Shown piece after piece: positions 8,511-24,091 of a stretch of 50,343 nt of DNA. The notes below the pieces were generated by a model. The model was not told the origin of the DNA. It worked only from the letters and a program-made list of their open reading frames with translations, and did not search any database. The stretch's first letter is position 1. Each line of letters starts with the position of its first letter. The translations under genes were made by a program, and so were the position numbers. The DNA is from Ktedonobacterales bacterium (GTDB taxonomy: Bacteria > Chloroflexota > Ktedonobacteria > Ktedonobacterales > DATBGS01). Location: assembly GCA_036557285.1 (NCBI GenBank), contig DATBHW010000017.1, positions 1 through 50,343 of the forward strand. The letters run 5' to 3'.

Positions 8511-8528
8511 AAGCGTTTCTGAACGCTT
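8511..8528 (-). terminator. Small stem-loop at the end of the GntR gene
   Basis: AAGCGTT-TCTG-AACGCTT forms a 7-bp stem with a 4-base loop overlapping the stop of the GntR-type gene. There is no T-run, so it may equally be a weak terminator or an operator-like palindrome ahead of the cupin gene. Confidence 0.3.
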
Positions 8529-8940
8529 AATCTATCGGCTGGCTAAAGACATCTGCCGCCAGTTCCTGAAGCATAGGCAGCGACAGTCCACGCAGCAGCG
8601 CATCGGTGCGCACTCGCCCCAACAGCGCCCGGACATGGGCAACATCGCCCGCCTGGGGCGAAGCTGGCCTGGTCAGGCGCGGATGAATCACTGCCCGCGA
8701 ACCATGCCGCAGCAGAATAATCTCCTCAGTCTCCAGCGCGTGGTAAGCGGTCAGGACCGTATTGACATTAATGCCCAGGTCCGAGGCAAGCTGGCGGACT
8801 GAAGGAAGCTGCATCCCCGGCTTTAGCTTACCTTCGGCCACAAAGGCGCGCGCCTGCTCGACGATCTGCATATACTTGGGCAAGGGATTGGTCTCATCCA
8901 GCGAGAGCAGCAAAGGCTCCGGCTCCATCGTTTCAGCCAT
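8527..8940 (-). CDS. Short GntR-family transcriptional regulator, YtrA-like
   Basis: A 137-residue DNA-binding protein. The N-terminal half is a GntR winged helix: NPLPKYMQIVEQARAFVAEG, then KPGMQLPSVRQLASDLGINV and NTVLTAYHALE as recognition region. Only about 60 residues follow, too short for a FadR or HutC effector domain, which matches the YtrA subfamily that often controls neighbouring ABC transporters. The start has GGAAGGGGAAGG immediately upstream; a longer frame to 9225 is only antisense overlap with the hydratase gene. It lies 28 bp after the enoyl-CoA hydratase and probably shares its transcript. Confidence 0.87.
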   Translation of the reverse strand: MAETMEPEPLLLSLDETNPLPKYMQIVEQARAFVAEGKLKPGMQLPSVRQLASDLGINVNTVLTAYHALETEEIILLRHGSRAVIHPRLTRPASPQAGDVAHVRALLGRVRTDALLRGLSLPMLQELAADVFSQPID

Positions 8941-8968
8941 ACCTTCCCCTTCCAGAAAATACAATAGC

Positions 8969-9760
8969 TTATTGAGTCTGAGAAGCGCCCTTCCCCTCCA
9001 GATCAAAACGGCCATGTCGGCCCAGCCCCTCGGCGAACCACTGCGCGCCCGCCGCGCCTCCCGCCTGCATGGACGCCAGACCATGTTGAAACTCGTTTGC
9101 CAGCGCCTGGTCCCACGCAAGATCGAACTGCTCATATGCCGAGAGCCGATCCCCGCGCATACACACCTGCGGGAAGTGCGCCAGTTCGCTGGCGAGCGCC
9201 TCGGCCACCTGGCGCGCCTGCCCATGCGCTGCCACGCGATTGACCAATCCCATCGCCAGCGCCTCCTCCGCGCTGACCGGGCGACCAGTCAAAATCAAGT
9301 CCAGCGCCCAGCTCAGGCCGATCAGCCGAGGCAGCCTGATCGTCCCGCCATCAATCAGCGGCACCCCCCAGCGCCGACAAAACACGCCCAGCGTAGCATC
9401 TTCCTCCATCACGCGCAGGTCGCACCAGAGCGCCAACTCAAGACCACCGGCAACGGCGTAGCCCGCAATCGCCGCGATCACCGGCTTACTCAAGAGCAGG
9501 CGGCTTGGCCCCATTGGCCCGTCGCCTGTCGGTTCCATCCGGTTTGCATGGCCGCTGGCAATCGCTTTTAGGTCCGCGCCAGCGCAGAACTGGCCGTGAT
9601 CGCCAGCAAACACACCCACCAGCGCGGCAGGGTCCGCATCGAAAGCCCTGAACGCCGCCGCCAGCGATTCCGCCGTCTGGCGGTCAACGGCGTTGCGCAC
9701 CTCTGGTCGGCTCAATATCACCGTCGTCACGGGTCCGTTGCGTTCGATAGTAACAGACAT
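8969..9760 (-). CDS. Enoyl-CoA hydratase/isomerase family protein
   Basis: A 263-residue crotonase-fold protein. The oxyanion-hole segment FCAGADLKAI (about 58-67) and the second oxyanion loop IAGYAVAGGLELALWCDLRV are both present. The position of the usual second catalytic Glu carries VPLIDGGTIRLPRLIG, so a Gly-Gly-Thr run replaces the commonest Glu pattern; the exact reaction (hydratase, isomerase or thioesterase) is therefore open. GGAGAAGG precedes the ATG. It is followed by a GntR regulator, while the kinase gene ends 115 bp upstream. Confidence 0.88.
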   Translation of the reverse strand: MSVTIERNGPVTTVILSRPEVRNAVDRQTAESLAAAFRAFDADPAALVGVFAGDHGQFCAGADLKAIASGHANRMEPTGDGPMGPSRLLLSKPVIAAIAGYAVAGGLELALWCDLRVMEEDATLGVFCRRWGVPLIDGGTIRLPRLIGLSWALDLILTGRPVSAEEALAMGLVNRVAAHGQARQVAEALASELAHFPQVCMRGDRLSAYEQFDLAWDQALANEFQHGLASMQAGGAAGAQWFAEGLGRHGRFDLEGKGASQTQ

Positions 9761-13702: not shown

Positions 13703-14002
13703 GGTTTTCCTCCTATCACAGATGTAAACAGGACAGTTAAGAGGCTTCCCCAAGCTCATGTTTGAGGTTTCAAGGTTGGCAAACAACACGGACGCTGCCT
13801 CAGCGAGCCAGGATATGCTGTGCTGAAAAGCGCACATGGTCAGATCAGTGTGCTAAGCTGATTTCACAGAGCGCCTGTTGTGAATCAAGGCGCGGCGCTG
13901 GCATGAGTGGTAACAGCCTCATGCTCAGATGCAAAACCTTCGCTACCTGCGCGGGCGCAAGCTTTGTTGCTCGTGGCGGCTTACAACATGGACACGCTAC
14001 AA

Positions 14003-14085
14003 AGCCCTCTTGAACATAGGTTTTACATACAAGTGTTCTATTACAGGCAATAATAGAACGTAAGTTCTATCTTGTCAAGAGGGCT
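14003..14085. repeat. 83-bp inverted-repeat-bounded AT-rich element
   Basis: Perfect 11-bp terminal inverted repeats, AGCCCTCTTGA at 14003-14013 and its complement at 14075-14085, enclose an AT-rich core. Inside are a 9-bp palindrome GTTCTATTA/TAATAGAAC (14035-14059) and ATAGAAC-GTAA-GTTCTAT (14053-14070). No target duplication flanks it, so it may be a regulatory module, not a miniature transposon. Confidence 0.6.
14051..14079 (-). promoter_or_regulatory. Promoter overlaid by palindromic operators
   Basis: On the minus strand TTGACA (14079-14074) is followed after exactly 17 bp by TATTAT. The spacer is occupied by the palindrome ATAGAAC-N4-GTTCTAT, and a second GTTCTATTA palindrome covers the -10 and start region. 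The GAAC-N4-GTTC core resembles the Gram-positive LexA box, but the regulator is not known. The transcript would run into the membrane-protein/C39/transglycosylase trio after about 340 nt of leader. Confidence 0.55.
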
Positions 14086-14137: not shown

Positions 14138-14659
14138 TTACTCAGGAAGAGCCTGGGTGAACGGTTGGCCCCACCGCTCCCGGTGCGCAATCTCGCCCAG
14201 TGGTTTGCGATTCTTCTTCCCTTTGCCGAGCGCGGCCACCGGATAGCCAAAGGCCAGAATCGCCAGAATCTCAATCTCCTCAGGAATGCCCAGCACAGAA
14301 TTGACCTGCTTGAGATTCTGGAAACCGACCCAGTTGGAGCCGACGCCCTGTGCCCAGGCGGTCAGCATCATAGATTGAATGGCCCGACTCGCATCAGACA
14401 CCGCAAAGATGCTCGCTTCCATACCCACCACAATCGCCAGCGAGGCTTGCGCGAGATACCGCCCGGTGGGCGCGAGCGCGCCGAGTTGGCGCAGCGTGTC
14501 CTTGTTCTCTACGACGACGAAATGCCAGGGTTGGCCGTTCCTGCTGCTCGCGGTCAGGTGGGCCGCTTCGACGATTTGCCGGATGACGGGTTCGGGGACA
14601 AGTTTTTCTTGAAATTGGCGTACTGCCAGGACTGTGCGAACCGCTTCAAAGACCTCCAT
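14138..14659 (-). CDS. Nitroreductase-family FMN oxidoreductase
   Basis: A 173-residue flavoprotein of the NADPH:FMN nitroreductase fold. FMN-binding features are visible: RQF near the start (Arg-Gln-Phe replacing the usual RxS-R), HLTASSRNGQPWHFVVVEN (about 33-51), and the C-terminal LAILAFGYPVAALGKGKK. Between them lies the dimer helix region SDASRAIQSMMLTAWAQGVGSNWVGF. The ATG at 14659 has AAGGAG five bases upstream and gives the usual family length. It stands alone between the operator-like promoter region and the IS605 relic. The substrate is unknown. Confidence 0.88.
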   Translation of the reverse strand: MEVFEAVRTVLAVRQFQEKLVPEPVIRQIVEAAHLTASSRNGQPWHFVVVENKDTLRQLGALAPTGRYLAQASLAIVVGMEASIFAVSDASRAIQSMMLTAWAQGVGSNWVGFQNLKQVNSVLGIPEEIEILAILAFGYPVAALGKGKKNRKPLGEIAHRERWGQPFTQALPE

Positions 14660-14790
14660 GCTGCTCCTTCTTTCTGTTGTACCCTCATTGGGCCTAGGTG
14701 CTCTTGCCTTCCGACCTGGCGCTTGCACACATGCACAAGAGGGGGTAGGTAATGGTCGGACCTACACCGCCAGAGACTAGCCGACTGCTT

Positions 14791-16144: not shown

Positions 16145-16960
16145 ATGGAAAGCATTCCCACACCCTACCCCGATCTCAATGTGGTGCTCCAGAACCTGGT
16201 AGAAAGCGTCCAGCTAGCTCTTGGTCAGAAGTTCATGGGCGCTTACCTCCAGGGGTCATTCGCCGTTGGCGATTTCGATGAGCATAGCGATGTGGATTTC
16301 ATCATCGTCATCACCGATGACCTCGCTGACTCTGAGGTATCAGCCCTCCAGCTTATGCACGCACGTTTGTATGGGCTGGAGAGCGCGTGGGCGCAGCATT
16401 TAGAGGGTTCTTACTTTCCCCAGCGTATCTTGCGGCGCCCTCCTCAGAGCAACGGTCTGCTCTGGTATCTCGATCATGGGAGCCGCTCACTCATTCAATC
16501 CGATCATTGTAATACCCTCCTGGTCAGGTGGGTTGTGCGCGAACAGGGGATACCTCTGGCTGGGCCTGCTCCTGTGACCCTGATCGATCCCTTATCGGTG
16601 ACTGCATTACGCCAAGAAATGCTGGCAACCATTCAGGACTGGGGGCAGGACATCCTGGCCCATCCTGATCACTACCAGAACCGCTTTTATCAAACCTACA
16701 TCGTCTTGCAGTATTGCCGCATGCTCCACGATCTGCACAACGGATTCCCTGGCTCCAAGAGAGCGGGCGCAGCTTGGGCCAAAACCACCCTGGATACTTC
16801 CTGGAAAGGGCTGATTGATCGCACGTGGGCTGGCCGACCCAATCCGGCCCTTTCTGTGCGCCAGCCTGCCGACCAGGCAGATTTCCAAGCAACGTTGGAG
16901 TTTGTCCGCTACATCATCAACCAGAGCAGGAGCTATGCAACAGCCAACCATCTTGAATAA
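16145..16960 (+). CDS. AadA-like nucleotidyltransferase
   Basis: A 271-residue protein with an N-terminal polymerase-beta-type nucleotidyltransferase domain: GSFAVGDFDEHSDVDF (about 37-52) supplies the Gly-Ser and the Asp-x-Asp metal ligands. The C-terminal half matches the helical domain of aminoglycoside adenylyltransferases (ANT(3'')/DUF4111 group). It may adenylylate a small hydroxylated molecule; whether this includes streptomycin-type drugs cannot be told from sequence. The start has AGGTGAG before ATG. It is divergent from the GH172 gene and convergent with lysA. Confidence 0.82.
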   Translation: MESIPTPYPDLNVVLQNLVESVQLALGQKFMGAYLQGSFAVGDFDEHSDVDFIIVITDDLADSEVSALQLMHARLYGLESAWAQHLEGSYFPQRILRRPPQSNGLLWYLDHGSRSLIQSDHCNTLLVRWVVREQGIPLAGPAPVTLIDPLSVTALRQEMLATIQDWGQDILAHPDHYQNRFYQTYIVLQYCRMLHDLHNGFPGSKRAGAAWAKTTLDTSWKGLIDRTWAGRPNPALSVRQPADQADFQATLEFVRYIINQSRSYATANHLE

Positions 16961-24059: not shown

Positions 24060-24091
24060 AGAAACGTCTTTCTAAATGAAAAGACGTTTCT
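24060..24091 (+). terminator. 12-bp stem-loop after gatB
   Basis: AGAAACGTCTTT at 24060-24071 pairs perfectly with 24080-24091 around an 8-base loop, 22 bp after the gatB stop. The sequence after it is TGTTCTC, which is only weakly T-rich, so read-through into glutamate dehydrogenase is possible. Confidence 0.5.

Follow-up and report, generated by a model that had tools for sequence, protein, structure and literature searches.

A probable SOS promoter ahead of a putative cell-wall operon in a Ktedonobacterales bacterium

Layout of the locus

In the 50,343-nucleotide stretch of Ktedonobacterales DNA analysed here (the window), an 83-bp block lies upstream of three genes and a protein kinase gene on the minus strand (Table 1). 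A sequence-only reading of this DNA had proposed the promoter TTGACA-N17-TATTAT in the block. The promoter was found, matching 11 of the 12 consensus positions in the promoter scan, and was assigned to the minus strand, a point that the reading had left unstated. On this strand, the block runs AGCCCTC-TTGACA-AGA-TAGAAC-TTAC-GTTCTA-TTAT..., and the LexA-type box overlaps the predicted RNA polymerase site, as in LexA-regulated promoters. The GTTCTAT/ATAGAAC half-sites described for the spacer, the –10 element and the predicted start point were all located in these places. Together with the half-site on the –10 side, the extra one at the start point yields GTTCTATTA-N7-TAATAGAAC. Its full 16-mer showed four mismatches in 12 positions when counted by eye, and its function is doubtful.

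Table 1. Features of the block at 14003–14085 and of the genes behind it (window coordinates).
Feature	Position	Strand	Remarks
Distal arm of the AGCCCTCTTGA inverted repeat	14003–14013		Overlaps the weak second LexA-like box
Weak second LexA-like box, TAAAACCTATGTTCAA	14010–14025	minus	2 of 12 mismatches; lies past the predicted start, at a distance of 44 bp from the main box
Extra ATAGAAC half-site	14041–14035	minus	At the predicted start point
–10 element, TATTAT	14055–14050	minus	17-nt spacer; begins with the TAT in which the LexA-type box ends
LexA-type (SOS) box, ATAGAAC-TTAC-GTTCTAT (ATAGAACTTACGTTCTAT)	14070–14053	minus	Perfect dyad; fills the spacer, overlaps the –10 element
–35 element, TTGACA	14078–14073	minus	Within CCCTCTTGACAAG, close to the –35 of sister promoters
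Proximal arm of the AGCCCTCTTGA inverted repeat	14075–14085		Coincides with the extended –35 region
Predicted 5' leader	13703–14043	minus	About 341 nt; fold not unusual
Gene 1	13702–13121	minus	193 aa; short N-terminus, one predicted membrane helix
Gene 2	12963–12274	minus	C39-like cysteine peptidase (Peptidase_C39_2); N-terminal hydrophobic segment
Gene 3	12265–11567	minus	SLT lytic transglycosylase; N-terminal hydrophobic segment; ESGFNP, GIAQFMP, AYNAGP
Protein kinase	11525–9876	minus	41 nt after gene 3; possible fourth member of the unit, co-transcription predicted

The block had been placed in front of an envelope trio with a 340-nt leader. The distance held: the trio begins about 341 nt from the predicted start near 14043, and the start codon of gene 1 is preceded by GATAGGAGGAAAACC, an AGGAGG ribosome site. 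The envelope part of the claim is suggested by the domain names, which point to a wall-directed function of the trio. Gene 3 starts 8 nt past the end of gene 2. For gene 1, Pfam and other family searches gave no match, and the structure model was of low confidence (mean pLDDT 48.6); sequence and this weak model both indicate one helix, and the C-terminal part of the protein is presumably outside the cell. None of the three trio proteins matched the anti-phage models. The search for relatives of gene 2 in plasmids and viral contigs returned none, as did a first scan of genome contigs. A riboswitch or other structured leader was rejected on the basis of the folding z-score (–0.86) and the Rfam search, which gave no family at gathering score. 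Its sole match, MIR396 on the other strand (28.1 vs a gathering score of 80), probably reflects a hairpin. Elsewhere in the window, an ORF on the plus strand (16145–16960) matched AadA_C, the C-terminal domain of aminoglycoside adenylyltransferases.

Taken inside the window alone, the dyad, repeat and promoter features are weak evidence. Five perfect 7-4-7 dyads were counted in the window as compared with 4.4 in shuffles, and promoter-like sites in a scanned 6-kb stretch were not more frequent than in shuffles. We judge the block to be real and beyond chance because the combination of promoter and box recurs throughout the genome.

The LexA-type box in the genome and in relatives

The bacterium's own genome (5.1 Mb, 82 contigs) was searched with reversed motifs as controls. 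The search for further sites that the sequence-only reading had called for yielded 20 composite promoters (TTGACA-N3-TAGAAC-N4-GTTCTA, at most two mismatches), as compared with none for the reversed control. With at most two mismatches, the 18-mer ATAGAACTTACGTTCTAT was found at 36 sites per strand vs 10 for its reversed control. Nine perfect TAGAAC-N4-GTTCTA boxes are present in the genome; at up to one mismatch, the box alone gave 26 sites vs 16 control sites per strand, and single-mismatch boxes without a –35 element are mostly noise. At the sister sites, the position of the box within the 17-nt spacer hardly varies. At least one composite promoter was found in 24 of 47 genomes of the order.

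Only one gene with a LexA DNA-binding domain was detected in the genome. Its product passed the TIGR00498 model (147.4 bits, cut-off 110.95), aligned with solved LexA repressors over nearly the full length, and retains the cleavage-site, Ser and Lys motifs, which we take to be the marks of a cleavable LexA. Judged by these motifs, the genome encodes a cleavable LexA, and it encodes RecA as well. The lexA promoter, which the earlier reading had singled out for inspection, carries a perfect TAGAAC-N4-GTTCTA box (TAGAACGTGGGTTCTA). This box ends 88 nt ahead of the lexA ATG and is identical to the window box in all 12 specified bases, but the promoter layout differs, since the lexA box lies downstream of its –10 element.

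Among relatives, 61 lexA loci were retrieved by scanning with eight aligned LexA proteins. Many were titled Ktedonobacterales, Ktedonobacter, Dictyobacter or Thermogemmatispora, some came from other Chloroflexi, and four were labelled Proteobacteria. A box with at most two mismatches was found within 250 nt upstream at 53 of the 61 loci and at none (0/61) with the reversed control, for which three mismatches were the best result. The best box had no mismatch at 7 loci, one at 9, two at 37, three at 4 and four at 4. In many Ktedonobacteraceae-type and Thermogemmatispora records (L180–L205), the lexA box has diverged and takes forms like TCGAATAGCCGTTCTA, in which one half-site is weaker than in the lineage of the window.

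Other SOS core genes were also preceded by the box. Directly upstream of uvrA, CTTGACAGAGG-TAGCACACCTGTTCTA-TAATG repeats the composite layout of the window promoter. At recA, TTGACG-N17-TATAGT overlaps TAGTACACTTGTTCAA, 116 nt ahead of an ATG that follows a good ribosome site. For a dinB-type polymerase gene, the box has one mismatch and is located about 50 nt ahead of the gene start, and the boxes of recA and mutS are weak (2 of 12 mismatches each). When the sites were read singly, the genes behind such promoters encoded a DUF900 hydrolase, a 79-aa ORF ahead of LytB/IspH, a glyoxalase-like protein, a DnaB-type helicase at a contig end, a HEAT-repeat protein and several family-less proteins; behind one of these promoters, a UvrD-type helicase lies further downstream of an unknown ORF. 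Caution is needed here, as several perfect promoters precede family-less genes or genes without an obvious SOS role, and the regulon is partly of this kind.

Two side observations concern sites of this type. At L029:2–1234, a DnaB-type helicase with AAA_25 has a small Cys-rich ORF before it and a perfect LexA promoter, at the contig end. Sites resembling TTGACAGATGAGAAC-N4-GTCCTA (position 1501 of L128, L129, L130 and L131) occur in many near-identical copies in three genomes (G042, G045, G046) and once in a fourth (G043). An IS605-type TnpB lies 40 nt downstream of the L128 site, and an ORF of equal length is found at about the same place in L130 and L131; these sites are possibly a LexA-like promoter of a transposon.

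The LexA/SOS reading is well supported because lexA, the lexA genes of relatives and uvrA share the box. The block had been described as a tightly repressed, possibly damage-inducible promoter of the GAAC-N4-GTTC type. The box at lexA and at most of the relatives' lexA genes, together with the layout at uvrA, speaks for this description, and we regard the block as very probably an SOS promoter repressed by LexA. LexA would occupy TAGAAC-N4-GTTCTA in the spacer, touching the –10 element, and would thereby exclude RNA polymerase. Following the LexA paradigm, DNA damage would activate RecA, LexA would cleave itself, and the near-consensus promoter would fire. The transcript would then run leftwards through the leader of about 341 nt into genes 1, 2 and 3 and perhaps the kinase gene.

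According to excerpts of two reports, the LexA motif of Gram-positive bacteria is GAAC-N4-GTTC (PMC3323433, PMC9578287). As far as these excerpts describe Bacillus and other Gram-positive LexA promoters, the core half-sites, their spacing and the position of the box on the promoter are alike, and so is its occurrence at lexA, recA, uvrA and a polymerase gene. The flanks differ, being TAGAAC/GTTCTA here and CGAAC/GTTCG there, and the near-fixed register of the box within the 17-nt spacer is a further difference. For a genome placed within or close to the Ktedonobacterales, the results define a clear SOS box and predict a LexA regulon; among the titles listed in a literature search, none dealt with the SOS response of this order.

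Possible role of the operon

The genome contains four SLT genes, and two of the four lie behind perfect LexA promoters, namely gene 3 of the trio and a gene on contig C45. The C45 protein is an SLT–C39 fusion with 45% identity to gene 3 (145 columns) and 30% to gene 2 (188 columns). The pairing of SLT and C39 thus occurs twice in the genome. Neither the other two SLT genes nor the two C39 paralogues (C18, C5) showed a box with two or fewer mismatches in the stretches fetched around them.

Conservation was searched in 47 genomes of the order, in which the family and genus of this bacterium are not represented. Gene 1 gave two matches, itself and one weak match with 22% identity. This relative (L163:1237–1758) is followed, some 0.7 kb on, by an ORF resembling a serine recombinase by eye, and may belong to a mobile element. 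For boxes, 23 loci were scanned (161,402 bases, several loci being cut by contig ends): 20 around C39 relatives in other genomes, among many more matches, two around paralogues and one around the gene 1 match. Five box-like matches were found as compared with seven in the control. SOS control of the trio appears, from these sequences, not conserved among the relatives examined. The stretches around a C39 gene in the genomes G021 (L155:6265) and G023 (L161:6305), both from a single genus of the order, each contain a composite LexA-like promoter, CGACAG-N-TCAGAACAAATATTCTATAAT.

The domains suggest a LexA-repressed SOS operon that acts on the cell wall, either as a division checkpoint or in controlled lysis. 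Its products would change the wall during DNA repair. Gene 1 is a candidate division inhibitor of the type known from Gram-positive SOS responses, with a single membrane pass and an extracellular C-terminus, and the two hydrolases would loosen or open the wall. The wall-checkpoint role as such is tentative, and we put it somewhat below an even chance. In the excerpts of PMC6851548, SOS division inhibitors of Gram-positive bacteria are described as commonly spanning the membrane once, with the C-terminus outside the cell, and wall hydrolase activity is reported for ChiZ. Compared with YneA, ChiZ, DivS and SosA as they appear there, the operon would have in common the damage control and, in gene 1, a single predicted membrane segment with a putative extracellular C-terminus. 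Unlike them, gene 1 has neither a LysM domain nor any other family match in Pfam, although LysM is also absent from SosA and DivS, and the hydrolases here are separate C39- and SLT-type genes.

A second reading keeps the SOS control and takes the trio as a lysis module: upon heavy damage, the wall would be dissolved and the cell would burst, releasing DNA or vesicles. We consider this possible but rather unlikely. The combination of a peptidase with a lytic transglycosylase is consistent with such a function, as are the second LexA-driven gene, the SLT–C39 fusion, and the endolysin family that gene 3 matched best in PHROGs; SLT domains, however, are also typical of ordinary housekeeping enzymes. 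A precedent is found in Pseudomonas aeruginosa, in which excerpts of PMC4834629 describe RecA-dependent explosive cell lysis by a pyocin endolysin. That system, as described there, resembles the present one in the SOS control of a peptidoglycan-cutting enzyme, which is predicted here, but no prophage or tailocin genes were present among the neighbours scanned in the window. A prophage lysis cassette was likewise not found: the scanned window ORFs included no holin, phage structural or other phage gene, and the neighbours were metabolic, transport and similar genes. Against this objection, both hydrolases have N-terminal hydrophobic segments of their own, and a holin would therefore be unnecessary. 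For Clostridium difficile, an excerpt of PMC4234289 reports an in silico LexA site ahead of a putative cell wall hydrolase; the likeness is that of a LexA site before a wall hydrolase, the family of that enzyme being unnamed in the excerpt.

The lineage may have evolved a prophage-free chromosomal SOS wall programme consisting of two independent LexA-driven SLT + C39 modules, one of them including a candidate division inhibitor. In response to DNA damage, these modules would halt division and bring about a controlled opening or dissolution of the wall. We put this forward as speculation, held with low confidence. DNA damage would be linked to enzymes that cut the wall at two loci of a single genome with no phage evident, which would make it a case of damage-induced wall remodelling or lysis.

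The framing repeat and other readings of the block

The AGCCCTCTTGA inverted repeats said to frame the block are present as perfect 11-bp arms with a 61-nt gap. They are not a general design, since full arms were found at 1 of 20 LexA sites. Perfect inverted repeats of at least 11 bp with gaps of at most 61 nt numbered eight in the window vs an average of 1.25 in shuffles; when the surrounding 500 bp were shuffled, such a repeat arose in 21 of 3000 cases. Among the 20 compared LexA sites, long arms occurred at the window site only (11 bp, 0/300 shuffles); the site on C73 had 7-bp arms (p 0.037), and the remaining ones were not significant. At the sister sites, the counterpart of the proximal arm is the extended –35 region, CCCTCTTGACA and variants, and the distal arm is peculiar to the window site. 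The framing repeat was therefore rejected as a common trait of LexA promoters. A second box with at most two mismatches within 110 bp was also confined to the window site among the 20. This weak box may be an extra operator or an accident; together with the inverted repeat, it may tighten repression.

The 83-nt block folds as one long hairpin (z = –6.29). In one framing, z fell below –4 in 2 of 19 LexA sites (C23, C80); the window site had z = –1.8 in that framing, which excludes the repeat arms. The palindrome might also act at the RNA level by attenuating or terminating transcription that arrives from the upstream nitroreductase gene (14138–14662). The predicted RNA hairpin (–30.8 kcal/mol) is positioned past the nitroreductase stop, but just three T follow the stem, the site is absent from the list of the terminator scan, and the LexA-type box would be left unexplained; we consider this role improbable. 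A divergent promoter from the distal arm was rejected, as no properly spaced –10 element was seen by eye on the plus strand and the promoter scan gave no plus-strand promoter at this place.

It is very improbable that a different dimeric repressor with an equal half-site (TetR, GntR or phage-type) owns the promoter in place of LexA. A GntR-family gene does lie in the window (8527–9225), and lexA's own promoter has its box downstream of the –10 element; against this stand the agreement of the lexA box in all 12 specified bases, the window layout at uvrA and the single LexA-type gene. Least credible, to the point of being negligible, is a small mobile element (MITE) that carried the promoter in, for which the earlier reading had looked to copies at many unrelated loci: the block is imperfectly palindromic, its 11-bp ends match perfectly and it forms a far better fold than its shuffles do, but the genome holds one full copy, and its three further matches span only 31–37 nt of the promoter-operator.

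In the background scan of the window, two very strong hairpins were seen at 24060 and 45120 (z about –6.8 and –8.4), which are perhaps terminators.
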